NCBI GenBank assembly: GCA_003139095.1
Contig: PLHW01000010.1
Span: 1 to 64,000 of the forward strand
Direction: 5' to 3'
From: Acidobacteriaceae bacterium
GTDB lineage: Bacteria > Acidobacteriota > Terriglobia > Terriglobales > Acidobacteriaceae
Length of the DNA: 64,000 nucleotides
Positions 7,266 through 26,100 of the stretch are shown here, one piece after another. Position 1 is the stretch's first letter; each line of letters starts with the position of its first letter. Made by a program: the position numbers and the translations under genes. The notes under the pieces were generated by a model that was not told the origin of the DNA, searched no databases, and was given only the letters and a program-made list of their open reading frames with translations.

Positions 7266-7279
7266 TGGAACTCCTTGGA

Positions 7280-7669
7280 CTAGGGGTCTTTCGTCCCGTT
7301 CGATTTCGAACTCAGGGCTATATCGACCGCACTCAGTAACGCTTCCTCAGTAAACGGTTTGATCAAGTAATCCACCGCGCCACTCCGGAGAGCTTGCGAA
7401 CGTAAGTGTTCCTCTGAGGCGTGGGCGGTGATAAAAATGACTGGAACCTTCCACTTTTTCGCCAAGAGGTAACGGTGGAGATCGATTCCATTCATTCCCG
7501 GCAGGCGCACATCCAGGATTAGGCAGTTTGTTTCAAGCACACGAGGCGAATTCAGGAACTCTTCAGCGGAAGCAAACACCTTGACCGCAAATCCAATAGA
7601 CCGGATCAAACTCTCGAGGGATTCGCGGACAGAAGCGTCGTCGTCGACCACTGATATAAGCGGCGGCAT
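7280..7669 (-). CDS. Stand-alone receiver-domain response regulator
   Basis: A 129-residue single receiver domain with acidic residues DDD (9-11), phospho-acceptor Asp53 in LILDVRLPG and Lys104 in YLIKPF. There is no output domain. Its sequence is closely like the receivers of both neighbours, so the three probably arose by duplication. It may act as a phosphate sink or relay for the histidine kinase encoded upstream, or by protein contact. The ATG at 7669 is chosen; a GTG at 7675 is possible. It lies about 80 bases after the FixJ-like gene and 14 before the REC-AAA gene, in one operon. Confidence 0.88.
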   Translation of the reverse strand: MPPLISVVDDDASVRESLESLIRSIGFAVKVFASAEEFLNSPRVLETNCLILDVRLPGMNGIDLHRYLLAKKWKVPVIFITAHASEEHLRSQALRSGAVDYLIKPFTEEALLSAVDIALSSKSNGTKDP

Positions 7670-7749
7670 TGACACATATTTAGCGGTAGTGGGAAGAGAA
7701 AATCTATTGCACCTTGGTGTAAGGCCGCAAGTTGCGGCGCTGCCGGAGC

Positions 7750-8379
7750 TTACAACATTTTCTCGCTGCTGGTCCGCAGCTTCTCCGCCATTCTAACCAG
7801 ATCCGCCAAAGAATTGGCATGCATCTTTCGCATAACCTGCCCGCGATGAACCTTCACCGTGAACTCGGTTATCTTGAGTTCGGCAGCAGCTTGTTTATTG
7901 AGCAGGCCAGCAACCACTTGCTCCATTACTTCCCGCTCGCGCGGGGTTAGCGATTCATACCGAGCCCGCAAGTCACTGATCTCGGAGTGCCGCTGACGTG
8001 CACGCTGGTCGCGTTCTATCGCCTGTTCAATTGCGCGCAGCAGGTCTTCCTCGGCAAATGGCTTGGTGAGAAACTCAAGCGCTCCTGCCTTCATCGCCTG
8101 TACCGAAGCCGGGACGTTACCATGACCGGTAATGAAAACTATGGGAATCTCAAGGTTGACGTCGGCCAACTGCTTCTGCAGGTCGAGCCCGCTCAAACCC
8201 GGCAGCTGTAAATCTAAAACCAAACAACTCGGCGCGTCGACCTGGGGACGAGCCAGGAACTCCTGCGCAGAGGCAAACGCCTCGACCCTCAACCCGGCAG
8301 AACGAATCAGACTTTCTAGAGATTCCCGAACCGACGGGTCGTCGTCTACAACAGCGATAAGTGCGTCAGACGGCGGCAA
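7750..8379 (-). CDS. FixJ/NarL-type response regulator
   Basis: A 209-residue two-domain protein. The receiver (about 1-120) has DDD at 12-14, Asp56 in LVLDLQLPG and a Lys in FLTKPF. A LuxR-type helix-turn-helix follows, marked by [15 protein letters not shown] and [17 protein letters not shown]. This is the FixJ layout and length. The frame is open further upstream, but that part overlaps the kinase gene; a TTG at 8379, just before PPSDALIAV, gives the family's usual start. It overlaps the kinase stop by 14 bases, so the kinase and this regulator are translationally coupled partners. Confidence 0.88.
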
Positions 8380-11300
8380 TGGATGGCTCCTCGTCGGACT
8401 TCGGAAGGGTAAAATGAAAGGTCGTACCCGGTCCGTCATTGGCCGCCGCCCACAGACGGCCTCCATGTTTCTGCACAATCGACCGGCTAACGGAGAGTCC
8501 CAAGCCCAGGCCCGCCGGTTTTGTGGTGTAGAAGGCATCAAAGATTTTGTCCAGGTTCTGTGGCTCCAGACCCGTCCCTGAATCCTGAATCGTAACTAGC
8601 ACCTGCTCATCCTCAACGTTGCGAGTGGTTATGACCAGTTCCCGTGGCCGTCCCTCAACGCTACTCATGGCTTCGATGCCGTTCATGATCAGGTTGAGCA
8701 CTACCTGCTGCAACTGCACTCGGTCGCCTAGAACGGGGGCAAGGTCATCCGCAAATTGCGTTCGTACTATTACGCCCTTTCCTTTTGCTTCGTCCCCGAC
8801 GAGGGCGAGGATCTCCCGAATAGTTTGGTTGATGTCCAGCTTGCCCGAAGGTGTACCAGCTCTTCTTGCCAGAGCCCGAACTCGGGCGATCACTTCCCCA
8901 GCTCGCTTCCCATCGCGGACGATGCGGCGGGCGGATTCCCGGGCTTCCTCCAGGTTGGGCGAAACTCCTGCCAGCCAACGCAGGCAGGCACTCCCGTTGC
9001 TTACAATGCCTGAAAGCGGCTGATTGATTTCATGTGCGATGGAAGCCGTCATTTCGCCCATGGTCGTCAACCGTGTAACGTGCGCGAGTGCTGCCTGAGC
9101 CTGGCGTAATGCTTCTTCGGCATATTTGCGTTCGGTGACGTCGATGTGGGTTCCCACCACTTCAATCACTTCTCCGCTCGCATTGAGAACCTGATGGCCG
9201 ACCGAATGGATGTATCTTACAGTGCCGTCGGGTAGCTCAATTCGGAACTCGTGGGCGTAGTCTGTTTTCTCTCGCACCGAGCGCCAGCCGAATTCCATCG
9301 CTCTGTCGCGATCCTCTGGATGCATCCGTTGACGCATTAATTCGAGGCTGGGGGTGGACTGCTGGGGGTCAAATCCCCAGATTCGAAAATTTTCCTCCGA
9401 CCAGTAGAGCGCATCTCCCCCAGGCTTGTAGGCCCAAGTGCCCGTGTGAGTCAGCCTCTGCGATTCCGCCAGATAGGCTTCGCTTCGCTGCAATGCTTGC
9501 TCGGCGCGTTTGCGATCTTCGATGTCGGTCAGTTTTCCGTACCATTTGAGAATGTTTCCATGCTCGTCCCGAAGTGGGACAGCACGGATCAGAAACCAAC
9601 GATATTGCCCGTCAGCGCGACGGAAACGCGCCTCATCTTCGAAAGGTTCTGCAGTCGCAACGGACGCGCGCCACTTATCCACATGTCGCTCGACGTCTTG
9701 CGGATGTACTACAAACTGCCAGCCTGAGCCGGCCGTGTCCTCCGCCGACAATCCGGTGTATTCCCGCCAACGCCGGTTCGCAAAAGCGTTGGAACCGTCA
9801 GGCAACGTGGTAAACGCCATCACCGGAATTGTTTCAATCACATCGCGAAGCTCGTTTTCGATCTTCCGGGCAGCCTCTTCGGCGCGCTTGCGATCCTCGA
9901 TATCGGTACGGGTACCGTACCAGCGAAGAACGCGTCCCTGCTCATCCCGTAGCGGATTGTCCCGGATCAGGAACCAGCGATACTGCCCATCTTTTCCCCT
10001 TATTCGTGCCTCCAGTTCACAAGGGACAGACTCTAAAAGTGCGCGCTCACGAACGGCCTCTAACTTCCTCAGATCTTCGGGATGAAACTTTCTGGCAAAG
10101 ATGTCTTTCGACTTCGTCTCTTCGAGAGTAAGGCCGGTGTATTCCCGTTCTCGTTGGTTGGCAAAAAGCGGACTCCAATCCGCGTCGAAAACATAGACCT
10201 GCTGGGGAATCACATCGACCAGCTGTCGCAGCTCCTCTTCGCTCTGGCGAATCTTTTCCTCGGCCCGCTTTCGGTCCGTGATATCGCGAATGGTGCTGGA
10301 AATCAGCACGCCTTCCTCGGTTTGCAAAGGGCTCAGGCTGATCTCCACCGGAAACTCCCGTCCTTCTTTATGCAGGCCGTACAGTTCCAGCCCGGACCCC
10401 ATTGCCCGCGCGCGAGGGTCGGCAACAAAACCCCTGCGGAGTCCCGGATGCTTGCTCCGGAACCGCTCCGGTATCAACATCTCGATTTCGTTTCCCAATA
10501 CCTCTTGTCGCCGATAGCCAAACAGCTTCTCCATTTGCGTATTGACCAAAACAATTTTGCCCTCACGATTCACCACCACGACCGCGTCGGGCGCCGACTC
10601 CAGCAGGTCGCGGAATCTTTGTTCGGCTTGCTTGCGATCTTCAATGTCCGTCGAGGTGCCGTACCACTTCAGGACCTTGCCTCGTTGATCCCGCAGCGGC
10701 ACAGCGCGTACCAGGAACCAGCGATATTCGCCGTCCGCGCGCCGGAAGCGCACCTCGTGTTCGAAAGGCTCGCCGTTCGTTATCGAGGCGCGCCATTTCT
10801 CTGTATGTCGCTTCAAGTCTTCCGGGTGAACGGCGGCTTCCCAACCTGAGCCGGCGGTGTTCTCGGTGGATAAACCCGAATACTTCTCCCAGTTGCGATT
10901 GGCGAAGTCGATGGAGCCATCCGGCAGAGCGGTCCAGGCAAATGTCGGAATGGTTTCGACCACATCCCGCAGCTTCTTTTCCTGACGCCGCAGTTGCCGA
11001 ACACGTACTTGATAGGCCGCCCAGAGCAACGCGAGGAACGCGGCCGCGCAAAGCGCTCGGAACCAGTTGGTCTGGTAGTAGGCCGGAGCAATCGCGAAGT
11101 CCAGGGACGCGCCTTCCTGGTTCCAAACACCGCTGTTGTTGCTCGCGATTACGCGGAATCGGTAGTGGCCCGGCGCAAGATTCGAATACTGCACCTGCCG
11201 GTCGTTCACTACCTCGCGCCAGTCCTGGTCCTGTCCTTCGAGCTTGAAACGGAAGCGCACCTTCTCTGGTGCCACCAGACTCAGAGCTGTGTAATCAATC

Positions 11301-13399
11301 CAAAGGTTCCGAATTCGCGGCGGCAGCATTAGACCGGCAGTAGGAGCATATGTCTTTCCATCCGCGGTGATCTGCTCAACGTGGACCGGTGGAGAAACTT
11401 TATTGAATCGGAGGTTGCGTGGGTCAATGACACTGGTACCATCCGAATGTACGAACCACAGTTTTCCATCCGCCGACTTCGTCACGACTGGGGCGTAGTT
11501 AGTCAGCAATGCATGTAATCTGACCCCGTCGCTGCCATCAAAGATCGTACTGCGGACTTTATGTTTTGGGTCCGCTGCCCACGCTTCCATTTCGGTCCGG
11601 TCGACATGGAGCAGACCGCAGGCCGCGTACAGCCAGAAGGAAGAAGCATCGTCCTGCATGACCCCGTGAACGGCATCGCAAGGGAGTCCATTTTTGGTGT
11701 TTAGAGTAGCGATACCACCGTCCTTGACTCGGCTCAAACCGCCTTGCGTTGCGGCCCAAAGTGTACCGTCTCCATCAACCTGAAGGTTCCAAATCTGATC
11801 CGCACCCAGGCCATCCTTGGCGCCAAGGGTTTTGTCGATTTGGCCGTCCTTGAAATGCGCGATGCCTCCGTCGACGAATCCAAGCCACAGTCCATCATGG
11901 ACGGGATCGGGTACGACCGCAGACAGGCGTTGGTCATGCCCAAGCTTCAACCATGGCCATGTCACCGATTCGACTACTCTGTTGTCGACCGCGTGAAACA
12001 GACCATGACCGGGATAGCTGATCCAAACCCCCTCGTGCTGATCAGCAAAGATTGCGTTGGCAGATCCGCCCGGCACGCCACTCACGCTAGTAAATCTGCC
12101 ATTCTCGAACCGCACAACTCCCTTTAGGCTGGTCACCCAGAGGCGGCCGCGTGGATCTTCGAAGAGTGAGCCGATATTGTTGTCAAGTAGTCCGGCATCC
12201 AGGATTTCACGGGCAGCGCCGTTCGCTTCTCCGGAGGATTTCCTCGACTGGGCCGGGGCGGCGCGATAGACAGTCATCTGTCCTCGATTCCACCGGTCCA
12301 GTCCATTAAAGGTACCGACCCAGATGCTGCCGTCGCGGGCAGCCAGCACTGACCAGGCCGGACTAGACAATCCTTGATGCCCAGAGATCGTAGAGACGGC
12401 GGGTTCGCGGAAGCGGTCCAGACCATTGGTCGTGCCTACCCAAATGGTGCCTTCGCGGTCCTCAAGAAAGGCCGTGACAAGATCGCCTGTTAGCCCGTTC
12501 CGCAGCCCAAACCAGGTTGTCGTTCCGTGGAAAACACGTAGTAGCCCCCTGTCGAAAGTTCCGATCCACAGAGCACCGTCGCGATCCCGCAGCAGCTTGG
12601 AAGGTCCAAAGGGCCGCATGCCTGGGAGATCGTAGCCTTCCACCTTGTTGTCGGTGACCTGTTCCAGGCCACTACTGCTTCCGAAAATCACGGATGTCGC
12701 GGGCTCCCCCGGAACCAGCGTCTGTTGGCTGTCGCTTGGATTCGGCGAATACAGTTGCGGAGGACCGGGCTTCCACCGCCACAGGCCTGACTCGGTTCCG
12801 GCCCAGAGACGGCCGTCGGTGTCCTCATATAAGGACTCCACATTACGACTACCGTAGCGATAATACTGACCTATTTCCGCACCAGCTCCAGTATCTTGGC
12901 ACGCAACTCTTTCCCTCCGAATCGCGCAAATCTTCCCGGAACCTCCAGCCCACACCGTTCCCTCGTGGTCCTCCGTGAGAGCCATTACCCCTCCATGAAT
13001 CTCGGGGTACTGGATCAGCTTGTCCTCTTTCCAGCTCGCAAGGCCCTCCAAGGTCCCGATCCAGAGAGTGCCGTCTCGCGTAGCGAGGAGCGCTAAGATA
13101 TTTGGGCTCGGGAAGTGCTGGCCCAGCGGTGGACTCCATGGGACGAATCGCACACCATCGAAGCGAACCAAGCCGAATTCCGTGCCAAGCCAAAGATAAC
13201 CGTCGGGCGTCTGGACAATTGCCCGGGTGCTGCCCTTCAAACCTTCGGGAGCCGTCCAGGCTGTATGCGTGTATTGGGTGAGGTCGAGTGAAGGATCTAG
13301 GGCCGCAGCGCGAGGGCAGACCACCACCAACAGGCTTACTACGCCAAACACAAGGCGCGAAATCGCAATTCTTGTCGGCCAGTGCCCTCTCGTTCTCAT
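8366..13399 (-). CDS. Propeller-sensor histidine kinase with five PAS domains
   Basis: A 1677-residue membrane sensor. After a signal-like N-terminus ([18 protein letters not shown]) comes a periplasmic two-component regulator propeller made of repeated blades (W-G-T/DRDG motifs such as [10 protein letters not shown]), then a Y_Y_Y-type domain (about 675-780) and one membrane helix (about 780-800). Five PAS/PAC units follow at about 811-927, 928-1060, 1061-1184, 1185-1316 and 1317-1444. Then come HisKA with His1456 in HEINQPLSG and a HATPase domain with [15 protein letters not shown] and GLGLGL boxes. It lacks an attached receiver. The ATG at 13399 is used; a GTG at 13408 is also possible. 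It is divergent from the Oar-like receptor gene and probably senses an extracellular compound, passing phosphate to the downstream regulators. Confidence 0.92.
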
Positions 13400-13558
13400 C
13401 GGCAACACATTTTACCCCGGAGTGCTCCTTCGCACGCCATTCAGCTTTTCGTCGACAATTTATAGCAGGATTGCGATAATTTGCCCGTTTAGATTTCGTC
13501 CGCGACGGCAAGTATGCTGTTTACAGAGTCGTCTGTCGGAAAAATGAATGTCCCCTGG

Positions 13559-13573
13559 TCGGAACGCTTCCGA
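13559..13573. promoter_or_regulatory. 15-bp dyad TCGGAACGCTTCCGA upstream of receptor gene
   Basis: A perfect inverted repeat (TCGGAA-CGC-TTCCGA) lies in the 173-base space between the divergent kinase and receptor genes, about 48 bases before the ATG at 13621. It could be an operator, perhaps for the FixJ-like or winged-helix regulator of the cluster. No experimental or comparative support was available. Confidence 0.35.
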
Positions 13574-16500
13574 TGATACGGGATAGTTGGCGTGTTCACG
13601 TGGCACCGACGGATATAGCCATGAAACCTATGCCATCAACGAAAATCAGATTCCGCCTCTGGGCTGCAGGTTTGTTACCGCTCACGCTTTTGTCCATGGC
13701 GGTTTTGGGGCTTTGCGCAACAGGGTGGGCTCAAACCTCCATGACAGGCCTTCTGAGAGGAGTGGTTACCGATCCTTCAGGTCGGGTGGTCGCGAATGCC
13801 GATGTTCGTGTAACCAATGAGAGAACCAACGAGGTAAGGACCGTGAAAACGGGCGCGGATGGAGCCTACACTGTGCCCCTACTTCCGCCCGGGACCTATC
13901 AGGTCGACATCGATGCGAAGGGTTTCGCTCGCACCATCGTTTCTTCAGTCGTGATCGCAGTAACTGAAACGAACGTCGAGAACGTCACCGTCAAGGTAAG
14001 CAGCGCACTGACAGCCGTCGAAGTGAAGGGAATTCCTCCGGTCGTCGAAACCAGCACGAATGCGCTCGGCGACGTGGTCACTACCGAACAAGTCGAGGCT
14101 CTTCCTCTGGTAAATCGCAATTTCACACAGATCATGACCCTCTCGGCGGGGGTTATCGCCAGCGTGACGGATGCGGCGGAATTAGGGCGTGGAAGCGGGG
14201 GCCAGATTCCCACCACCGAAGGGCAAGGGCAAAACGTCAATGGTGCGCGCGCCAGCGACATCAATTTTCGAATGGATGGGGTGGACGTGAACGATTACGA
14301 CGCCTCCGGTTTCGGTGTCCCCATCCCCAACCCCGATACGATCCAGGAGTTCAAAGTCCAGACGGGAATGTACGACGCGGAATACGGTCGGGATGCCGGC
14401 GCGAATGTGACCCTGGTGACGAAAACGGGCTCGAACGCATTGCATGGCGACGTCTTCGAATTTTGGCGGAACGATGTACTCAATGCCAACGACTTTTTTT
14501 TCAATCAGAATAGCGTCCCACGCCCCGAACTGAAGCAGAACCAATTTGGAGGCACGCTGGGCGGGCCGATCATTAAGAACAAATTGCTTTTCTTCGGCTC
14601 GTATCAGGGCACACGGCAGATCAATGGAGTATCGGGCCGCCAAACCTTCTATTCCCCACTTACTAGCAATGATCGTTCCGCCGCTTCGCTCGGGACGCTT
14701 TTTGCCGGACAGCAAGGGCTCTGCTACATTTTTTGCCCCGGTCTTCCGGGGTTTGGACCACCAATCGCCGCTGACGGCTCCAATATCAATCCGGTTGCGC
14801 TGACTCTTCTGCAAATGAAATTACCGAATGGGCAATATCTGTTCCCGACTGCCAACCCGGCAAACGACTCCGTCTCCCTGAGTGTGCCTGCGAGCTTCAA
14901 CGAGAATCAGTACATGGGAAATTTCGATTTCTTGCAGTCACCGAAGAACACGATCCAGGGCCGTTTTTTTGCTGCGCAGAGTAATACTACGAATGTTTTC
15001 GCTGGTGGCGGCAATCTGCCGGGCGCTCCCTCGACAGATGACCTGAACTATCTAGTGGCCTCGCTGACCGACACATACGTCTTCAAGCCGAATCTCTTTA
15101 ATCAAATTCGGTTGGGCTACGATCGAATTTCTTCCGTTACCACGCCGCATTCGCCATTCACTTTTTCCGGTGTAGGCGTGAACACTTCCACCCAGAATGA
15201 CAACAAGCCATCGGTAACCATCGCTGGCTCCGATAACTTTAACCCCGGGTTCTACTTCCCTTTTGCACAAGATCTTTTCAACCTCGAGGACAACATAGCC
15301 TGGGTGCGTGGCCGGCATACTCTTCGCTTCGGCGGCGGAATCACTAGAGCCTATCTGAATAACCGCGGGGAAGAATACTACGGTCAGGTGAACTTCCCCA
15401 GTTGGCCAGACTTCCTCCTGGGAATGAACGGTGCACAAAACGGAACCGCCGGGTTACCTGGGTTTCCGCCCAACGGCTTCAGCAATGTTTTGTACTCGCT
15501 GGAGGTACTCGGTGTACTGGCGGGGCATGCTCGGACCTGGGAGATCTCGGCTTATGCTCAAGATGATTGGCGAATCGACTCCAGGCTGACGCTGAACCTC
15601 GGCCTGCGCTGGGAGTGGTTACCGCCGTTCACTAACACGAATGGCCGGGCGACAAATATAAACCCCCCGTTATTGAACCCCAACCCTCCGCCGACGGGCA
15701 GTCTGGCAGGATATGTTGTACCGGCGAATTGGACGTATCCGGTCCCGGCAGGCGTCGTGAAGTCTGGCATCAACGGGTTCGTACCTGGGAGCGGAAACCA
15801 TACATGGGGTCCGCGAGTTGGGTTTGCGTACAGCTTGCCCCCCACCAATGACCGCGTCGTGGTGCGGGGCGGGTACGGGATCTATTATTCAGCGGTAACT
15901 GGCAATAGCGAGTTCCAGTCTATAGGCGGCTTGCCCTGGGCGCTGATCGGTGTCTTTGCTCCGCCCTTCAATGGCAGCGCCTCTTGGGCACATCCGTTCC
16001 AGGAACCGATTCCCCCGCTCAGCCAATTTCCGTTCTTCGATCCCTATACACCGGATAGCGACCTGAGTTTGACCGCCACGCAGCAGACGATCCGTCCTGC
16101 TATCACGCAGGAGTATTCATTCAATGTACAAACTGCAATTACTCCAACATTGGCATTACAAATTGCCTACGTCGGATCGAGTGCCAACCATCTGATTTAC
16201 TCGCACTCCATCAACCAGGCGGGTCTGGCCACTCCGCAGAATCCAATCCGCGGACAAATTACCAGTACTTTGTCTAATCTCGCTCTGAGGGTTCCGTACC
16301 AAGGGTGGGACCCCGCAGGATTTATGGAACAAGGCTCGGAAGGGCGGTCCAGCTTCAACGCCTTGGAGGTTACGCTGAAAAAGAATCTGAGTCACGGATT
16401 GCAATTCTTGTCGGCGTATACCTGGTCGAAAACGTTGTCCACCGGGGCTGCGAACGTCGTGGGGAGCACCTTCGGCGAAGGGACGATCGGCGATCAAAAC

Positions 16501-17109
16501 AATCTCTATGCGGGTTACGGTGAAGCCAATTTCAGCCGGCGGCACCGCGTAATCGCAAGTGCGATTTACGAATTGCCGAGGTTTGACCACGGATCTGGCA
16601 TCGCGGCAAAAATGTCGAGTGGCTGGGCCCTGTCCACGGTGGTGACTCTCCAGTCCGGAACGCCGCTCACATTCTTCAACACCAATTCGAACAATCTGTT
16701 TGGTACGTCGAGCGACTTTGCCTACCTTGATCTGAGTGCACCGGGATGCGACGCACGTCTCGGACTCGGCGGCTCTGTTAGGAGTCGCTTGGACGAATAT
16801 TTCAACACCAATTGCTTTACCAGTCCTCCGGTGATCAGTTCAGATAAAGGTACGGGCTTTGGCAACACGAAGCCCGGACTGCTTCGCGGACCCGCCCAGC
16901 ACAACGTTGATCTTTCGCTAAGGAAGACGACTGCATTGACCGAGCGGATGGCCCTTGAGTTCCGAGCCGAATTCTTTAACGCCTTCAACAGCACGCAATT
17001 CGGCAATCCGGATACTACATTTAGCGACGGCGTGCCCGCATTCGGCAAGATCACAAGTACTTCGGTAGCGCCTCGTATTGGACAACTCGCATTGAAGCTT
17101 AGTTTTTGA
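13573..17109 (+). CDS. Oar-like TonB-dependent receptor with carboxypeptidase-like domain
   Basis: A 1178-residue outer-membrane protein. A signal peptide (hydrophobic LLPLTLLSMAVLGLCATGWA) is followed by a carboxypeptidase regulatory-like fold (GVVTDPSGRVVANADVRV, then LPPGTYQVDI). Next comes a TonB plug region (LPLVNRNFTQIMTLSAGV, then MDGVDVNDY) and a long beta-barrel that ends in a C-terminal aromatic residue (ALKLSF). This Oar/CarboxypepD_reg-like family is greatly expanded in Acidobacteriota; substrates are mostly unknown and may be glycans or peptides. The first ATG (13573) overlaps a DNA dyad; the ATG at 13621 (MKPMPSTKIRF) may be the real start. No SusD-like gene or glycoside hydrolase lies beside it. 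It is divergent from the propeller kinase, which suggests ligand-linked control. Confidence 0.9.
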   Translation: MIRDSWRVHVAPTDIAMKPMPSTKIRFRLWAAGLLPLTLLSMAVLGLCATGWAQTSMTGLLRGVVTDPSGRVVANADVRVTNERTNEVRTVKTGADGAYTVPLLPPGTYQVDIDAKGFARTIVSSVVIAVTETNVENVTVKVSSALTAVEVKGIPPVVETSTNALGDVVTTEQVEALPLVNRNFTQIMTLSAGVIASVTDAAELGRGSGGQIPTTEGQGQNVNGARASDINFRMDGVDVNDYDASGFGVPIPNPDTIQEFKVQTGMYDAEYGRDAGANVTLVTKTGSNALHGDVFEFWRNDVLNANDFFFNQNSVPRPELKQNQFGGTLGGPIIKNKLLFFGSYQGTRQINGVSGRQTFYSPLTSNDRSAASLGTLFAGQQGLCYIFCPGLPGFGPPIAADGSNINPVALTLLQMKLPNGQYLFPTANPANDSVSLSVPASFNENQYMGNFDFLQSPKNTIQGRFFAAQSNTTNVFAGGGNLPGAPSTDDLNYLVASLTDTYVFKPNLFNQIRLGYDRISSVTTPHSPFTFSGVGVNTSTQNDNKPSVTIAGSDNFNPGFYFPFAQDLFNLEDNIAWVRGRHTLRFGGGITRAYLNNRGEEYYGQVNFPSWPDFLLGMNGAQNGTAGLPGFPPNGFSNVLYSLEVLGVLAGHARTWEISAYAQDDWRIDSRLTLNLGLRWEWLPPFTNTNGRATNINPPLLNPNPPPTGSLAGYVVPANWTYPVPAGVVKSGINGFVPGSGNHTWGPRVGFAYSLPPTNDRVVVRGGYGIYYSAVTGNSEFQSIGGLPWALIGVFAPPFNGSASWAHPFQEPIPPLSQFPFFDPYTPDSDLSLTATQQTIRPAITQEYSFNVQTAITPTLALQIAYVGSSANHLIYSHSINQAGLATPQNPIRGQITSTLSNLALRVPYQGWDPAGFMEQGSEGRSSFNALEVTLKKNLSHGLQFLSAYTWSKTLSTGAANVVGSTFGEGTIGDQNNLYAGYGEANFSRRHRVIASAIYELPRFDHGSGIAAKMSSGWALSTVVTLQSGTPLTFFNTNSNNLFGTSSDFAYLDLSAPGCDARLGLGGSVRSRLDEYFNTNCFTSPPVISSDKGTGFGNTKPGLLRGPAQHNVDLSLRKTTALTERMALEFRAEFFNAFNSTQFGNPDTTFSDGVPAFGKITSTSVAPRIGQLALKLSF

Positions 17110-17300
17110 CGGGCAGCGCTTGATCCAACTGGTGCTCTAAGCTTCACTTCTGAACATCCAACGGAACAATCGTTCGCTCTGCCGGGGCGTGGCTCGCGTG
17201 TTCTCCGTGCTCCACGTGACCGCGTCTTTCACCGGAACGCGGCAACGGTAAGAAACTTCCTTAGCCTTTCGATACTTCAAAATAACAGGCGCGAATTCGT

Positions 17301-17314
17301 TTACAATTTTGTAA
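17301..17314. promoter_or_regulatory. 14-bp AT-rich palindrome TTACAATTTTGTAA
   Basis: A perfect dyad (TTACAAT-TTTGTAA arms meeting at the centre) about 80 bases upstream of the M15 peptidase gene, in the 286-base gap after the receptor gene. It could be an operator or part of a promoter; this is only a sequence observation. Confidence 0.3.
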
Positions 17315-17395
17315 GCGTCAGCGCGTCGCGTAATCAAGCAAGACGAGCTACTCCAACTCGGGTTGCTGGTTGGGATGAAAGGGTAAGAACAAGAG

Positions 17396-17962
17396 ATGAA
17401 CAGATGGCTGTCCGGAAACATCGACTTCCGGAATTTCACTTTGTGGCTGGTTTTCCTTTTGCTTGTAGTACCGTTTGGTTGGACATCAGAGCAGGCTGTC
17501 CCGCCGGCACGCGAATACCGCCTTCACCTTTATCACACCCATACCGGCGAGCGGCTCGATATCGTGTACCGCCGCGGCGACGCTTATATACCGGGTGCGC
17601 TCGATGAACTCGACCATTATCTCCGCGATCATCGCACGGGTGAGGTCCGCCATTTCGATCCCCGCCTGTTCGACGTGCTGTACGACCTAACCGCTTCTCT
17701 CAACGATACGGGCGGTGAGATTGACGTAGTTTGTGGATACCGCACTCCTTGGAGCAACGAGTTCTTGCGCTCGCGAAGCGCGCACACGGGCGTGGCTCTC
17801 CACAGCCTTCACATTAAGGCAGAAGCGATCGACATTCGCCTGCCTGGGATTCCAACGGCAGGAGTTCGGGATGCCGCATTGCGGCTGCATCGCGGGGGGG
17901 TGGGCTACTATCGCGCTTCCGACTTCGTTCACGTGGATGTGGGCCGCGTGCGCCGTTGGTAA
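17396..17962 (+). CDS. DUF882/YcbK-type murein endopeptidase (M15 fold)
   Basis: A 188-residue exported protein: a hydrophobic N-terminal segment (TLWLVFLLLVVPFGW), then the DUF882 domain, which belongs to the zinc peptidase M15 fold. The likely zinc ligands are His139 and Asp146 (SLHIKAEAIDIR) and His179 (FVHVDV). E. coli YcbK (MepK) of this family cuts meso-DAP cross-links in peptidoglycan. The gene converges on a YcbB-type L,D-transpeptidase gene with only 8 bases between the stops. In E. coli ycbB and ycbK are also neighbours, so the pairing supports a role in 3-3 cross-link turnover. Confidence 0.85.
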   Translation: MNRWLSGNIDFRNFTLWLVFLLLVVPFGWTSEQAVPPAREYRLHLYHTHTGERLDIVYRRGDAYIPGALDELDHYLRDHRTGEVRHFDPRLFDVLYDLTASLNDTGGEIDVVCGYRTPWSNEFLRSRSAHTGVALHSLHIKAEAIDIRLPGIPTAGVRDAALRLHRGGVGYYRASDFVHVDVGRVRRW

Positions 17963-17970
17963 CTCCAATC

Positions 17971-19716
17971 TCACCAGGGATACGGATAGCCCTTTGCGAG
18001 AACCTTGTCCAGGGCGGCATCGTGTCCATAAATGTCGTCGTAGAAGTGTACGGCGCCGTCTTCCAGGACGATGACGGTGCCATACAGGATCAAGACGGGA
18101 ATCGGGTGCGTGAGATTCACCTGCTGGGTCGTGGTACCGTTCATCGCCGCGCGAATGCGGTCGGGCGTCCATCCGGGATTGTCGCGCAGAACCCACGCCG
18201 CGAGCTCGGCGGGTTTTTCCAGCCGGACGCAACCGTGGCTAAAATCCCTTCTGGACTTCGCGAAAAATTCGGTCGACGGCGTATCGTGCATATATACGTT
18301 GTAGCTGTTAGGAAAAACGAACTTCACTAGTCCCAGCGCGTCCTTTGGGCCCGGCTTTTGACGGATGAAGAGCTTGCCCGCTCGAAGTTGGGCGAGCACC
18401 TCGGGCGTGACCTCTCCCGCCGCAACCACGTTCTGCCTGCTGTCGACCACTTCGAATCCCTTGCTCGCCAAATACCCGGGATCGCGCACAATGTGCGGAA
18501 TCATCTCCCCGTGGATAATGGACGGCGGAACCTCCCAATGGGGCCGGAAGACAACGTACTGCATCGTGTCGGTAAACACCGGGGTGTTGTGGCCGCCATA
18601 GGCTTTGCCCACGACGACGTTCATCGTGACGCCGATTTTGAAATCTTTGTCATAGGCGCGGAGACGGAACTCGGGGATATTCACCACGATGGGCTCCTTT
18701 TGATACGAGTCCGGCATCCACCGCCATCGCTCCAGAGTCAATTGCATTTGCCGAACCCGGCGGCTCAAAGGAACGTTTAAGTCGGCGAGGGTTAGAGCGT
18801 CGATTCTCCCATTCGGATCGCGGCCATGCCTGCGCTGAAAATTCTTCACCGCTTCCACGAGCGCACCGGCATAGACAGGAGGATCAACCGGAACATTCGC
18901 GTCTCCCGGGAGGTCGCCAACCAACCGAAGCAAGCGCGTGAGCCGCGGAACGCCGGGGTATGTGTCACCCGGCACAACTGCTTTCTTGCCCGCCGGGAGT
19001 TGCTCCCCGTCATCTCTCTTCGCCAGCTCGACATAGGTTTGTAGCGCCTGCAGGGTGCGTCGGTAACCGGGATAGGACGGCTCCACTTGCGCCAAAACGC
19101 CAGCAACGTTTCCCGCGCCGACAACGTGATCCTTCAGAAACTCCGCTAAGTCGTATTTCTTGGACTCATCATCCAAAGCAAAGGCCAGGCGCTTGGGATT
19201 TACCTTGCCGATATGGAGGTCAGAGATATACCGCATCGCGCAAACTGTGAGCGCGAGATCGAATTTCACGGCATCGGCGTCGCTCGGCTGACGGGTCGCG
19301 GGTTTGAGAGGGGTCAATCGGCCGCTCCACTTGGGTCCATCGTAATCGTCGGCGGAAAGTCCCTTCTGGTCGGCCTGGAGCAGCAACGCGATCACTTCTC
19401 GCGCCTGACGGGTTGGCTCCATTCCTTTGACCCATGACAATGAATTCCCGTTGAGTTCGTAGAATTTCTGAACCTGCCCTCTGTAGTCACTGAAATCGGG
19501 CCAGCGCAAATCGGGAAATGTGCCGCCCGTAATGGCTGCACGCAACCACACGTGATCTTCGGAGCTGAGGTCCTGCGCTCTTTCATTGCCATTGCTAGAA
19601 GTTACCGGCTGAGTCTGAGCAAAGCGCGCTAAGCCGAGCAATCCGCAAGACAGAGCGATCAGCAACATGGCCATCAACAAGCGGGGTCCCCGCCACAAAA
19701 TCTGCAATTGCTTCAC
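17971..19716 (-). CDS. YcbB-type L,D-transpeptidase
   Basis: A 581-residue protein with an N-terminal membrane anchor (LLMAMLLIALSCGLLGLA), an N-terminal scaffold domain, a peptidoglycan-binding helix bundle (AVKNFQRRHGRDPNGRID) and a C-terminal YkuD catalytic domain. The active site is SHGCVRL, with the nucleophile Cys496. It forms 3-3 cross-links in peptidoglycan in the periplasm. The start is GTG at 19716, fixed by a perfect AGGAGG five bases upstream. It converges with the DUF882 endopeptidase gene, whose family removes such cross-links. Confidence 0.92.
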   Translation of the reverse strand: MKQLQILWRGPRLLMAMLLIALSCGLLGLARFAQTQPVTSSNGNERAQDLSSEDHVWLRAAITGGTFPDLRWPDFSDYRGQVQKFYELNGNSLSWVKGMEPTRQAREVIALLLQADQKGLSADDYDGPKWSGRLTPLKPATRQPSDADAVKFDLALTVCAMRYISDLHIGKVNPKRLAFALDDESKKYDLAEFLKDHVVGAGNVAGVLAQVEPSYPGYRRTLQALQTYVELAKRDDGEQLPAGKKAVVPGDTYPGVPRLTRLLRLVGDLPGDANVPVDPPVYAGALVEAVKNFQRRHGRDPNGRIDALTLADLNVPLSRRVRQMQLTLERWRWMPDSYQKEPIVVNIPEFRLRAYDKDFKIGVTMNVVVGKAYGGHNTPVFTDTMQYVVFRPHWEVPPSIIHGEMIPHIVRDPGYLASKGFEVVDSRQNVVAAGEVTPEVLAQLRAGKLFIRQKPGPKDALGLVKFVFPNSYNVYMHDTPSTEFFAKSRRDFSHGCVRLEKPAELAAWVLRDNPGWTPDRIRAAMNGTTTQQVNLTHPIPVLILYGTVIVLEDGAVHFYDDIYGHDAALDKVLAKGYPYPW

Positions 19717-20133
19717 TGAATCCTCCTGCCCCGCCGGACCTCTCGTCGCGGGCGTTCTGCGCGAAAGTCGCCTTCGCAGTGGAACGATCCGAACTTAGGG
19801 AAGATGGGAGCGCAATGGCTCCGAAATGTTGCTATGTTGCCTGTGATGTCGCTGCTCACAAACGGTGGCGTTCCCGATTCCAGTTTGAACGTCTCCATCA
19901 CCGCCATGCCGGATCCAAGACTTTGTTTCCAAGACATTCATATAGGCCATGACCAAGACGTCCTGGAGAGACATTGCCCTGTAACGAATGCGCCACATCT
20001 AGCCCCTCCAGTTCCTGTCAAGTGTTGACATGCCCAAAGCTGAAAATCGTTCGCGTTCCTCAGTGAGTACCGCAAACGCCAGGCTCATTCCAGTTCCAGA
20101 ATCCCCCAAGCTCGAAATAACGGACTGCTTGAG
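19717..20133. other. Intergenic stretch with a 15-bp dyad
   Basis: About 420 bases between the L,D-transpeptidase start and the 37-residue gene. Only short open frames are present (one on the minus strand runs into the transpeptidase ribosome site), with no recognisable protein and no good ribosome sites. It contains the dyad TGTCAAGTGTTGACA at 20016-20030. I see no RNA gene. Confidence 0.5.
20016..20030. promoter_or_regulatory. 15-bp dyad TGTCAAGTGTTGACA
   Basis: A perfect inverted repeat (TGTCAA-GTG-TTGACA) in the long non-coding stretch upstream of the L,D-transpeptidase. A related imperfect copy (TGTCAA-GAGT-TTGACG) occurs at 32316-32331. It could be a repressor site, or it could include a TTGACA -35 element. 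Function unknown. Confidence 0.3.
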
Positions 20134-20247
20134 CTAGGCTGATTTTTTGGTCCGCGAACAAAACTCGATAACCTTCCCGTGTTGCGACTGAGTAGCGCGC
20201 GCCATCCGGAAGGTCTTCGGTACGTAAAACTCAATTAGTTTTGCCAT
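20134..20247 (-). CDS. 37-residue small protein with repeated IEF motif
   Basis: A very short gene whose start is set by a strong AAGGAG ribosome site six bases before the ATG at 20247. The product begins MAKLIEFYVPKTFR and ends GKVIEFCSRTKKSA, so a short K-[LV]-IEF motif occurs twice, once at each end, joined by a basic linker. It is highly basic and has no signal peptide or membrane segment. I recall similar tiny proteins in Acidobacteriota, but no function is known. It stands alone between two dissimilar genes. Confidence 0.65.
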   Translation of the reverse strand: MAKLIEFYVPKTFRMARATQSQHGKVIEFCSRTKKSA

Positions 20248-20444
20248 GAGAAACTCCTTCATCGTCTGGGTCCACGCGTGCGGGGAAGCGATCCCGAGTT
20301 CCAATAGCCCTACCATATCCATCCGCAACCACAACGAACGGAGTCGCACCACCGGCGCTTACGCAAGAGGGCTTTACAAACAGCGCATGATCTCATCCAC
20401 ATGTCTTTTCTCCCGCGACTTTCCACATCCTCGTACCTCTTACA

Positions 20445-22574
20445 TCATTGCGGACGAACCGGAATATTGAGCTTGCGAATCCGATATGCCAGGGTCGTCC
20501 GTTTCATGCCAAGCCGTGCCGCGGCACCGTTTGGCCCGCCGATGACCCAGTTGGAGGCCCGAATCGCCTGGAGCACCCGATCGCGTTCCGCCTCTTCTGC
20601 TGTGCTCAGCTTCGGATTCGGGCTCGGGAAGGATGCCTGTTTCAGTTCCGCCAGGGGCGGCCTGAGAACGCTCCCCGGCGATAGGATCACGGCCCGCTCG
20701 ATGAAGTTCTGCAGTTCACGAACATTTCCCGGCCACGAATAGTTTGCAAAGATCTCCATGGCATAGGAAGGAATGGTTTCGATGTGCCGGTTCATTCGCC
20801 GGGCGTACTTGTCAACGTAGTGGCGCACCAGGATCGGTATATCCTCGCTACGATCGCGCAACGGCGGCACTTGCAGAGGAAACACATGCAATCGGTAATA
20901 CAGATCGTGTCTGAACTTCCCTTCCTCGCACATCTGCTTCAAGTCGCGGTGTGTGGCGGCGATCACGCGCACGTCCACCTGCTGTGTGCGCGTGCTGCCC
21001 AACCTCTCAAATTCACGCTCCTGCAAAACCCGCAACAATTTCGGCTGCAACTCCAGTGGGATGTCGCCCACTTCATCCAGAAACAGCGTGCCCTGATCCG
21101 CAACCTCGAACCGGCCGGCCTTCCGCATGATGGCGCCGGTGAATGCTCCCTTTTCGTGTCCAAAAAGCTCGCTTTCCAATAGCCCGGAGGGGATGGCGGC
21201 ACAGTTCAGCTTGATAAAGGGCCGATCACGGCGAGAGCTCAGATTATGAATCGCTCGCGCAATCAACTCTTTGCCTGTGCCTGTTTCTCCCTGGATCATC
21301 ACGCCGGAGTCAGTCGGGGCGACGACCTCAACCTGCCGCAGCACGCGCTGCAGAGCCGAGCTCCTGCCGACGATTTCTTCGAAGTTCAGCTCGCTGCGGA
21401 TTTCATCCTCGAGGCACACCCGCTCCTCGGTAAAGTTGTCCTTCAGCTTTCGCAGTTCGCCGTAAACCAGCGCGTTCTCAACCGCTACGGCTACCTGGCT
21501 AGAGACCTGCAACAAAAAATCAAGTTCATCGTGGGTATAGGCGGTATCCTCGTGTTTGCCGAGGGCGAGAATCCCCAGCATCCGGTCCCGGCCGGCAAGC
21601 GGGACGACACAACTGTTCCTGAAGCCTGCTACCACCCACTTCGAATCGCCCTCCGCATCCACTTGGTCTGACTCTTCGGAATTTCCCACCCAGGGTTTGC
21701 CCGAGCAGAAAACGCGAGCGCCAAACATCTCGCCCAAAACGTCGACTGCCTCTTTGGCGAGCATGTTGTCCTCAGCCATATCGCAAGCGCTTACCACAAC
21801 CCGGTCCCCCTCGGAATCCAAGAGTCCAACCATCGCCAGATCGGACGGGATGACTCGCCGGATGCCCGCCGTCACTTCACTTAGAAGCTCATTCACCGGC
21901 AGATTGGCCATCACACCGTTGGTCAGGGCGCCGATCAGCTTGAGTCGCGCACTCTGCACGTCCAACTCGGACTGCGCGCGTTGCGACCTCTCACGGCTCA
22001 GCGCGTGAGATATGGCAAGTGCCACCTGGTCGGCCGCCAGCGACAGGAACCGTACTTCCTCATCTGAATAGTCGTGCGGTCGAGAACTGGCAATACTGAA
22101 TACTCCGAGCGGCCCCTGTGGAGTGCGCAATGGCAGTCGGCAGAGAGAGCGGTACTCGACTCCCATTTTGTTCAGCGCCTCTCTTCGGACCGCAAACCGT
22201 TTGTCCAGCTTCCAGTCTGCAATGCACAGCGGTTGCTGTTGTTGGTGAACCCACCAGAAAGTCGTCTCCTCGACCGGAACATCGGGTGGGGCGAACTGCC
22301 CGGCTCCAACGGAGTGCCAGAGCACTTCGCTGGTCCCTTGTTTGAAAACGACGACATCGAGGAAGTCGAAATCGAGCAATGGACGCAGCAAATTGGCGAG
22401 ATTGTGCGACAAATCCTCCAGGGTCATGGATGCAAGAGATATGGAGAGCCGCGACAACGCTTCGTATTGCTTCGCCAGCGTCTCCGATTCGGTCGGCGGC
22501 TGCGTCACTCGCATGTTGGGTAGGAAACTCATCAAAGACTCCTGCGGTCTCAGTCCAAACTCAGCGATACTCAT
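20445..22574 (-). CDS. Sigma-54-dependent activator with two GAF domains
   Basis: A 709-residue activator of the FhlA/NorR type. Two GAF-like sensor domains lie at about residues 40-190 and 215-370. They are followed by the AAA+ domain with Walker A GETGTGKE (429-436), the sigma-54 contact loop GAFTGA (476-481), Walker B TLFLDEVGD (about 496-504), and a C-terminal Fis-type helix-turn-helix (AARLGMKRTTLAYRIRKLNI). No receiver domain, so it is probably switched by small-molecule binding or by partner proteins. The ATG at 22574 with a GAGG site 5 bases upstream is preferred; an ATG at 22634 is also possible. The target promoters are not visible in its immediate surroundings. Confidence 0.93.
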   Translation of the reverse strand: MSIAEFGLRPQESLMSFLPNMRVTQPPTESETLAKQYEALSRLSISLASMTLEDLSHNLANLLRPLLDFDFLDVVVFKQGTSEVLWHSVGAGQFAPPDVPVEETTFWWVHQQQQPLCIADWKLDKRFAVRREALNKMGVEYRSLCRLPLRTPQGPLGVFSIASSRPHDYSDEEVRFLSLAADQVALAISHALSRERSQRAQSELDVQSARLKLIGALTNGVMANLPVNELLSEVTAGIRRVIPSDLAMVGLLDSEGDRVVVSACDMAEDNMLAKEAVDVLGEMFGARVFCSGKPWVGNSEESDQVDAEGDSKWVVAGFRNSCVVPLAGRDRMLGILALGKHEDTAYTHDELDFLLQVSSQVAVAVENALVYGELRKLKDNFTEERVCLEDEIRSELNFEEIVGRSSALQRVLRQVEVVAPTDSGVMIQGETGTGKELIARAIHNLSSRRDRPFIKLNCAAIPSGLLESELFGHEKGAFTGAIMRKAGRFEVADQGTLFLDEVGDIPLELQPKLLRVLQEREFERLGSTRTQQVDVRVIAATHRDLKQMCEEGKFRHDLYYRLHVFPLQVPPLRDRSEDIPILVRHYVDKYARRMNRHIETIPSYAMEIFANYSWPGNVRELQNFIERAVILSPGSVLRPPLAELKQASFPSPNPKLSTAEEAERDRVLQAIRASNWVIGGPNGAAARLGMKRTTLAYRIRKLNIPVRPQ

Positions 22575-23118
22575 ATCGGCCTCGCTCTCTCGGGTGTAGT
22601 GCGCTCGGAATTGATTGTCGGACCCTATCCCCATTTCGTCCCCAGGTTCGTACTCCGCTGTATGCAGACTAGTGAATTCACAGTTGCCTGTCGTGATCCG
22701 GGAGTCATGTTTCGGTGGAAATTGTGTTCCCGGTCGGTATATTGTCTCGTGACAAAGAGCCGCAGAAAGGGACAAATGCCACCCCTTTTCGTTCATAATT
22801 TCCCCCACATAGCGCCCGGATCGACTGCAGCGCGACGCCAACATCCAGGCAGCCTCTCGTCGCAAATTGGGCCGGGGCGGATTCTACCTGGAGCCAGAGC
22901 CCAATCCGGAACCGCGTATTGGGCATGTGTATACTCGGCCCATCTGGCTGTAAATGCTCTGGCGGTGATTTTCCGGTGAAATGCGAGGGCTGTCATGCAA
23001 ACGATTTATTCTAAACGACTAAGCTTACGGCTTTGGGTTGTCAGAACTTCGTCTTTTTGATAATTTTTCTTGGGGTCCAGCACGAAGTTTTACACTCTTA
23101 GCCAATCTCACAGGTCTC
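22575..23118. other. Divergent intergenic region
   Basis: The space between the sigma-54 activator and the winged-helix kinase gene. It holds the dyad TTGTCTCGTGACAA at 22742-22755 (arms TTGTC and GACAA). The leading part remains open in the activator's frame but has no family similarity. The part before 23119 is open in the kinase frame from a TTG at 23038. No RNA gene is seen. Confidence 0.45.
22742..22755. promoter_or_regulatory. Dyad TTGTC-TCGT-GACAA upstream of the sigma-54 activator
   Basis: An inverted repeat with 5-base arms and a 4-base centre, about 170 bases before the chosen start of the activator gene. It might be an operator for autoregulation. Support is sequence symmetry only. 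Confidence 0.25.
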
Positions 23119-26100
23119 GTGGAAAAGCCTGTCCCAGGTCGCGTCCGGTTCGGGGGGTTTGAGCTTGACGTTAAGTCGGGGGAATTGTGTCCGACGGGCT
23201 CGGTCGACGGCGAAGGCAAAGTCCTCCTGCGGGAGCAAGCCTTCCAGGTCCTGCGAATGCTGGTTGAGCGCGGGGGCAAAATCGTGACCCGCGAGGAAAT
23301 CAAGAGCAAGCTTTGGCAAAACGATACGGTCGTGGATTTCGACCACAGCATCAACGCGACCATCAAGACTCTCCGGCGGGCTCTCGGCGATTCGGCTGAC
23401 AACCCTCAGTACATCGAGACGTTAGCGCGACGAGGGTATCGGTTGATGGTCGCGACCGAGTGGCTGGAATCGACGGCAGGAACTCCTCTTGCCGACGCTC
23501 GCAGTGTGCAGTCGTCCCCTGTACCCGGCGACCTCATCGGGAAGAAGGTCTCCCACTACCGCGTACTGGGTTTCATCGGTGGCGGCGGCATGGGGATGGT
23601 CTATAAAGCCGCGGACCTCAAGCTGGGCCGCCCGGTGGCTCTGAAATTTCTGCCCGAGGAACTGGCGAGTGATCCAGTTGCGCTTAAGCGTTTTGAGCGT
23701 GAAGCGCAGACTGCCTCGGCCCTGAACCATCCCAACATTTGCACGATTTACGAGATTGAAGAGCATGAAGGCGAGCCGTTCATTGTCATGGAGTTGCTGG
23801 AAGGGGAAACCCTGCGGAATCGGATGTCTACCCCAGAGTCCAAGGCAATCCCGGTGTCTGAGCTCTTAGACATCGCAACGCAAATCGCCAGCGGATTGAA
23901 AGCCGCCCACGACAAGGACATCATTCACCGCGACATCAAGCCGGCCAATATCTTTCTGACGAAGCAGGGCACGGTCAAAATTCTCGATTTCGGTTTGGCC
24001 AAGCTGGCCGACGGAGAAGAAACGCCGGAACACGCCCATGCAGAGGCTTCCGGGGTCAGGCGACCTCCGTCGAGGGTTGGGCAACCGCCAAAGGAGCAAA
24101 CGCCCACGTCTCGGATCTACGCGAGCCTGACTCGGTCTGGAACCTCCGGTACAGCCGGTTACATGTCGCCTGAGCAAGTGCGCAAGGAAAAGCTGGATGC
24201 TCGCACAGACCTGTTTTCCTTTGGCATGGTTCTCTACGAGATGGCTACTGGTCGCCGCGCTTTTGAGGGAGACACCGTCGCCGTCATTCACGAGGCAATT
24301 CTCCACCAGAGAGCTGTCCCGGCGCACGAACTGAACCCGGCTGTGCCGCGCAAGCTCGACAACATCATCATCAAAGCCTTGGAGAAAGATCGTTCGCAGC
24401 GTTACCAATCCGCTGCCGAGATGAGGAGTGACCTGGCGGAAGTCCATCGTCAGCAGCAGCCACAGCGTCTCCGCCTGCGCAAATGGTTGGCGGCGGTTGC
24501 GTTGTCGGCTGTTGTCGCCGGAGCGTACTGGTCCTACTGGAGCTACAGCCATCGCATCACCCTCGCTCCGACCGACACAATCGTGCTGGCCGACGTCGAC
24601 AACCGAACGAACGACCCTGTTTTCGACGACGCCTTGAACACCGCATTGCGCTATGAAATGGGGCAGACGCCATATCTAAATCTGCTGGGATTGGATAAAG
24701 CGTACGCCACCCTGGGGCAACTGAAACTTCCGCCGACCACCAAGATCACTCCGGAGATCGCACGCCAGATTTGTAGTAAGACCAACAGCAAGATGGTGAT
24801 CTCTGATTCAATCGCCGACAGCGGTAACCGATATCAGCTGGAGATGAGTGCACTCGACTGCGGATCAGGAGCGACCTTGGCTGAGGAAAGTGCCGACATT
24901 AGCGCTCGTAATCAGGTAGTCCATGAGTTGGGAGCGGCGGCCGTACGCCTTCGGAGCAAGCTCGGGGAGCCGGCCGAATCGCTGGCCCGGTACAATCAGC
25001 CTCTGGAAAAAGCGACCAGCGCCTCCTTGGAAGCACTCCAGATCGGCACCGAGGGAACGAAGCTCTTCCTCGCTGGCAACCCGCAGGCAGCGCTCCCCCT
25101 GTATCAGAGGGAAATCGAACTGGACCCAGACCTTGCGCTCGGGTACGAGGGAATTGGCATGGCCAACGGAGATCTCGGCCATTCCGACCTCATGGCAGCT
25201 TCAGTTACGCGCGCCTTCCAATTGCGCGACCGAATGACGGAGAAGGATAGGCTGAATACCGATTATCTCTATTACAGCGACGTGACGGGCGAGCTCGACA
25301 AGGCCTACTCCGTCCTACTTCGGTTGCTGGAACTCTTTCCTCGCGATGTATTCTTTCATACTAACCTGGCGTACACGCTGGGTGAACTCGGCCAGCCCAA
25401 GCGTGCGGCCGACCTACGGAATGAGACGGCGCGGCTGGAGCCAAGTCCACTCTATTTTTCGTGGGCGGCCGAGGCCAACATAAGCGCAAGCAGGTTCAAG
25501 GAGGCGAGGTCGTGGCTGGCTCAGGCGGAGGCCCTTAAATTTGACAGCCTCGAACTGAGGATCCAAAGACTGCGACTGGCATTCATCGAAGGTGATCGGG
25601 CAGCTCTCGACCGGATCTTCGACGGCGAAGCGCATGGCCCTAATCGAGTCGTGTTTTTGCGCCTTAGATCGCGATATGAAGCTCAGCAGGGTCACTTTGA
25701 CTCCGCAGATCGCCTACAACTGCAGGTATCGAAGATGCCTTCGGATCCGGAGGATATTGCCAGGGACCTTGTCTTTTCAGCCCTGCAAGACGCAGAGGCG
25801 GGCAGGGCAATCAAAGCGCGCAAAACCGAAGATCAGGCACTTCAGAACAAATTGGAGCGAAACAAACGAATGGTTTTGGCTCTCTCGCTTGCCCGGTCGG
25901 GGAGAACCGACGAAGCCGAACAGATCGCAGACGAAGTTAGCCAGGAAGCACCCTTGGACACCATTGTGCAGCGGTATCTTGTTCCCACAGTTCGCGCTGC
26001 GGTCAAATTACAGCAGCATGATCCCGGCGCCGCCATCGATCTGCTCCGCGGGACTGTCCAGTACGACCTTGCAGACACTCTGTCGTTTGGTTATCTCTAC

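Follow-up and report, generated by a model that had tools for sequence, protein, structure and literature searches.

A propeller-type sensor kinase divergent from an Oar-like receptor in an Acidobacteriaceae genome: a candidate counterpart of Bacteroidota sensor/receptor circuits

The stretch of Acidobacteriaceae DNA analysed here, referred to as the window, comprises positions 1-64000 of contig C74 in the 5.53-Mb genome G000, and in it a propeller sensor histidine kinase on the minus strand (8366-13399) stands back to back with an Oar-like TonB-dependent receptor on the plus strand (13621-17109). The likeliest reading of this pair, to which we assign a probability of roughly 0.55, is that it forms part of a classical, non-hybrid two-component counterpart, in Acidobacteriota, of the sensor/receptor circuits of Bacteroidota; it would work like an uptake locus controlled by a hybrid two-component system (HTCS) while being neither an HTCS nor a polysaccharide utilization locus. 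The divergent arrangement had been proposed in a preliminary description of this DNA and is borne out by the Pfam domains of the two proteins and their opposite strands, although the interval given there, 13400-17109, contains the spacer and the receptor but not the kinase. The same description proposed a ligand-sensing uptake circuit, and this proposal held in part: the sensor is related to HTCS sensors and its clade is recurrently paired with receptors, but neither the exact pair nor the dyad noted between the genes is conserved. Searches of open-licence PMC papers brought up no account of this pairing for Acidobacteriota, and the portions of PMC3174227 that treat receptor paralogues do not mention it.

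The reading is carried mainly by the neighbourhoods of related kinases. A search across 398 family genomes yielded kinases at 75 places in 50 of them; 70 of these places lay within the window or the fetched stretches, and the remaining 5 were left out. Further kinases came from a best-match search and from scanning named genomes (best 80 of 587), and the sample is biased toward near relatives. Removal of 95% duplicates took the 174 kinases to 157 (17 out), and the requirement for at least 1 kb of upstream sequence took these to 138 (19 out); receptors were recognized with a hidden Markov model built from 30 of them. An Oar-like receptor lies directly upstream of 12 of the 30 kinases with a sensor score of at least 680, as against 1 of the 108 scoring below (Fisher p 1.6e-8). 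With the window excluded, 11/29 close kinases are receptor-linked, and the contrast survives at each of the cut-offs tested from 500 to 800 (worst p 0.0004, or 0.0019 without the window). By our own estimate, from about 26 receptors in 5.53 Mb, adjacency would be expected for about 0.5% of random kinases. Nine of the 12 linked close kinases are divergent from the receptor and three lie on its strand. The gaps, measured between the ends of open reading frames (ORFs) and not true starts, run from 30 to 338 bp, with receptors that are unrelated to one another. Among the 12, L111 has just an 84-aa receptor remnant upstream and the contig end cuts the receptor in L050 and L113; L048, where an IS200-like ORF splits the pair, was not counted.

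The linked receptors fall into at least six lineages that are about 25-32% identical to each other, as judged from the pairs compared and a quick tree, and counting these lineages as events gives p ~2.5e-5 at a generous background of 2%. Common ancestry of one pair is therefore not the whole cause of the adjacency, and one sensor clade has instead been repeatedly paired with different receptors. One receptor lineage (L048, L052, L113, L121, L124 and L125; 48-83% identical) accompanies kinases scattered over the sensor tree. In the 44-row sensor tree, which like the receptor tree is the product of a quick search, at least seven changes in receptor adjacency and at least eight in transmitter class are counted. 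Related kinases with often unrelated receptors suggest a sensing-and-uptake circuit in which the receptor is exchangeable and, if receptors are indeed exchanged under a constant sensor, it would provide an example of uptake circuits that evolve through the capture of single genes. Oar-like receptors are present by the dozen in Acidobacteriota, and a sensor clade that keeps receptor neighbours offers a handle on their substrates and control; one such pair (L110) is present in Edaphobacter aggregans DSM 19364, a strain available in culture.

The receptor in the window itself appears to have been captured as a single gene from a lineage that elsewhere stands beside peptide-degrading genes. Receptor matches at 1e-100 were found in 36 of 61 genomes, and the closest outside the window is an orthologue in G007, 85-86% identical. 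No kinase is present near the orthologue; two Peptidase_S10 genes, an aminotransferase and an amidohydrolase follow it, and on its other side are RidA, a YheO-like regulator and a further S10 gene. Comparison by blastn of window positions 8001-26000 with a 20-kb stretch of G007 gave a sole block of homology, at 13602-17122 on the plus strand (80.6%), which amounts to one gene, with homology reaching only about 19 nt upstream of its ATG and 13 nt past its stop codon. A search for the G007 operon in G000 found no close copy (best S10 33%, best amidohydrolase 43%). It is because the homology is confined to the gene, and because that operon lacks a close copy in G000, that we favour capture of the receptor alone. 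A plasmid search with positions 13000-14000 gave no match.

Several observations weigh against the proposed circuit. Among the genomes searched, the exact kinase-receptor pair occurs only in G000, and strict conservation of the pair in relatives, on which the preliminary description had staked its proposal, had to be abandoned: the G007 orthologue has no kinase, the sister kinase in locus L031 has a different receptor, and the kinase was found in the flank of 1 of 30 receptor loci, namely L001, the window itself. No upstream receptor is present for 18 of the 30 close kinases, and the score boundary of 680 was chosen after the scores had been seen. The spacer yielded no conserved operator, its receptor half resembling neither the paralogue nor the orthologue. 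Frequent receptor exchange would also be odd for a specific ligand, unless different receptors bring in the same ligand class. The strongest competing explanation is that the adjacency reflects genomic accretion: both kinds of gene are numerous and mobile, they are often gained jointly, and nothing regulatory would connect them. G000 has 37 matches to PF25183 (about 26-28 receptor genes after merging by hand) and seven to Y_Y_Y; the kinases fetched from G001, G005 and G000:C28/C43 are unpaired, as is the G007 receptor, and L048 has its IS200-like ORF. Accretion does not readily account for the concentration of pairs among the inner kinases or for the recurrence of short gaps with unrelated receptors, and we regard it as a serious explanation but a distinctly less probable one.

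The resemblance of the locus to known systems is partial. The HTCS layout of Bacteroidota polysaccharide utilization loci, as outlined in PMC3243724, shares with the window periplasmic Reg_prop propellers and Y_Y_Y, one transmembrane segment, a histidine kinase and an adjoining TonB-dependent receptor. By Pfam, the window kinase has Reg_prop repeats, Y_Y_Y (11090-11272, minus strand, from a family PF07495 search), about five PAS domains, HisKA and HATPase_c; read by eye, it has one transmembrane segment and intact H, N and G boxes. Its sensor matches the solved Bacteroides HTCS sensors 4a2l (E 2.9e-36) and 3v9f. Unlike an HTCS, the kinase lacks Response_reg and HTH domains, and the regulators, which are of FixJ/NarL or winged helix-turn-helix (wHTH) type, are encoded as proteins of their own. 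Unlike a polysaccharide utilization locus, the window has an Oar-like receptor and not SusC; the families found in the ten window proteins scanned (other window ORFs were not scanned) include neither SusD nor a glycoside hydrolase, as the preliminary description had said. Since neither a SusC/SusD pair nor glycan enzymes are among those proteins, a polysaccharide locus was ruled out. The transmitter side resembles FixL/FixJ-type two-component systems, with a PAS-HisKA-HATPase_c transmitter, an adjacent FixJ-type receiver-GerE regulator and active-site residues present by eye, but here the kinase is fused to a periplasmic propeller sensor and is accompanied by an extra lone receiver and a receiver-wHTH-AAA protein. 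The receptor (CarboxypepD_reg, Plug and OMP_b-brl_4 by Pfam, Plug scoring 24.4 bits against a cut-off of 23.9) gave no match among solved structures. It is likened to Oar of Myxococcus xanthus, described in PMC6434023 as a large TonB-dependent receptor with an N-terminal carboxypeptidase-regulatory-like extension, by its domains and not by sequence comparison.

The sensor's best match is a paralogue in L031 (G000:C74:100000-119999), 95 kb away on the same contig and 62-63% identical. L031 contains a wHTH-AAA regulator, a NarL-type regulator, two tandem propeller kinases and then a divergent Oar-like receptor, which is 31% identical to the window receptor over 337 aa. In the sensor tree the kinases of the window and of L031 group as sisters (support 100), inside a mostly HisKA group, but those of L031 are HisKA_3 and that of the window is PAS-HisKA; a transmitter must therefore have been exchanged on one of the two branches. 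Two other architectures were seen among related loci. In L078 (6612-10793, minus strand) a propeller/Y_Y_Y sensor is fused to a sigma-54 activator AAA+ domain with GAFTGA, as a one-protein regulator in which no histidine kinase H box was found. In L120 a Sortilin-Vps10/BNR protein of 1088 aa (6411-9677, minus strand) takes the receptor's place, divergent from a close HisKA-type propeller kinase.

The regulators vary with the transmitters. With transmitter class assigned by phmmer score (a Pfam check on 16 + 16 kinases found HisKA_3 in 16/16 and HisKA in 15/16), the neighbours of HisKA kinases are FixJ-type in 6 cases and NarL-type in 0, with none near in 14 and a weak match in 1, whereas those of HisKA_3-class kinases are FixJ-type in 2 and NarL-type in 42, with none near in 27 and weak in 2. 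HisKA thus goes with FixJ-type and HisKA_3-class with NarL-type regulators. The FixJ-like and winged-helix regulators named in the preliminary description are both present. In order of minus-strand transcription, the kinase is followed by a FixJ-type response regulator (receiver and GerE, 7750-8541; true start uncertain, its ORF overlapping the 3' end of the kinase ORF), a stand-alone FixJ-type receiver of 131 aa (7280-7675) and a receiver-winged helix (Trans_reg_C)-AAA_16 regulator (5178-7265), all on that strand and assigned by Pfam. The lone receiver groups with the short receivers of L051, L052, L063, L072 and L121. In the wHTH-AAA protein the receiver shares 59% identity with that of the neighbouring FixJ-type regulator, while the L031 wHTH-AAA regulator, 58% identical to the wHTH-AAA part, lacks a receiver. 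In 200 genomes the whole protein gave 38 matches, and the other 37 start at residue 120-143, past the receiver. It therefore seems that, at the window locus, the same kinase has acquired a second DNA-binding output. A broader possibility, which we put forward tentatively and think rather doubtful in full, is that the propeller sensor clade is a fixed chassis on which both the receptor and the transmitter with its matching regulator are exchanged, the window being a recent case in which, equally tentatively, the receptor was grafted in as one gene and a receiver was newly fused to an older wHTH-AAA regulator. Receptor capture would then rewire uptake under an existing sensor, gene by gene.

What comparison shows is the sensor clade, its habit of receptor adjacency and the match between kinase and regulator classes; we infer phosphotransfer, promoter control and the ligand, and regulation of the receptor by the kinase solely from gene order. 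In the proposed circuit, the periplasmic propeller and Y_Y_Y would sense a ligand reaching the periplasm, and PAS-HisKA-HATPase_c would relay the signal to the FixJ-type regulator encoded alongside, with the lone receiver and the receiver-wHTH-AAA protein as further probable recipients. All of these would act on transcription of the divergent receptor, which would import the ligand or the ligand's source. Alternatively, the kinase could control other genes, with a constitutive receptor merely supplying the propeller's ligand, an arrangement suggested by the three receivers and two DNA-binding regulators on the kinase side and by the receptor-proximal part of the spacer, where no conserved site was found. 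Recurrent head-to-head placement is, however, a usual sign of a shared promoter region, and the three same-strand loci also fit co-expression, so that we consider a constitutive receptor improbable.

As to the substrate of the circuit, the receptor's relatives adjoin peptidases, serine hydrolases and amidohydrolases. Ten neighbours of relatives at 38-47% were scanned, and these are three beta-lactamase-fold hydrolases, an S9 peptidase, an S15 peptidase, two MR_MLE enzymes, an amidohydrolase, a kinase and an AMP-binding enzyme. Because the receptor lineage sits beside peptide-degrading genes elsewhere, our guess is a peptide-like substrate, and the polymers put forward in the preliminary description would be less apt for expression tests. 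The AMP-binding enzyme and the kinase speak against this guess, as do the alpha-glucan enzymes near the receptor-linked L031 (15092-17077) and L111 (15085-17271), one a branching-enzyme-like and one a debranching-enzyme-like protein. The Oar-like protein might instead export a protein, as M. xanthus Oar does the PopC protease, with the kinase monitoring export; given that the pair lacks a secreted-protease gene and that the receptor's closest relatives stand in catabolic operons, this is very unlikely.

The spacer between the likely ATG starts is 221 bp long (13400-13620). The kinase ORF extends from a GTG at 13408 (8366-13408), but comparison with the L031 paralogue makes the conserved ATG at 13399 the likely start; similarly, the receptor ORF is 13573-17109 and comparison with the orthologue in L032 points to ATG 13621. 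The kinase-proximal part resembles that of L031 (score 15.0 vs 8.4 +- 1.5 for shuffles, 0/300 as high), while the receptor-proximal part does not do so significantly (0.07 of shuffles reach the score) and no match was seen between the window spacer and the sequence upstream of the G007 receptor (0.86 of shuffles). The perfect dyad reported in the shared space, TCGGAA-CGC-TTCCGA at 13559-13573, is real in letters and position, its 6-bp arms flanking an asymmetric CGC, but is no more frequent than chance allows: the window holds 190 dyads that have perfect 6-bp arms and spacers of 0-10 (0.63 per 212 bp), 16 of them with a spacer of exactly 3 (0.053 per 212 bp). TCGGAANNNTTCCGA occurs at this single place in the 5.53-Mb genome, and neither the L031 spacer nor the sequence upstream in L032 contains it. 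The last base of the dyad coincides with the A of the first ATG in the receptor ORF (13573), and the sole promoter-like match lies about 80 bp upstream of the dyad (TCGACA-17-GATAAT, 13452-13480, plus strand, by consensus only), so that if this promoter is real the dyad would be in the leader, outside the usual place of an activator site. That the dyad is an operator or leader hairpin tying both genes, as its perfect arms and the modest frequency of exact spacer-3 dyads might suggest, is the least probable explanation of all and was dropped, given its single genomic copy, its absence from relatives and the other linked spacers, of which 9/12 hold some perfect 6- or 7-bp dyad, each different and none common. 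The element CCCCAAAAGAGTGATGC was rejected as a motif for the window, being absent from it and from L031. It is identical in the receptor-kinase spacers of L113 (1178), L121 (9869) and L125 (4392) and may serve as a regulatory site in that receptor lineage.

To the right of the receptor lie convergent DUF882/M15 peptidase and L,D-transpeptidase genes (17396-19716), presumably MepK and ycbB/ycbK. They are also together in G005 (L198), where the kinase and receptor are absent, and were for this reason ruled out as part of the unit.
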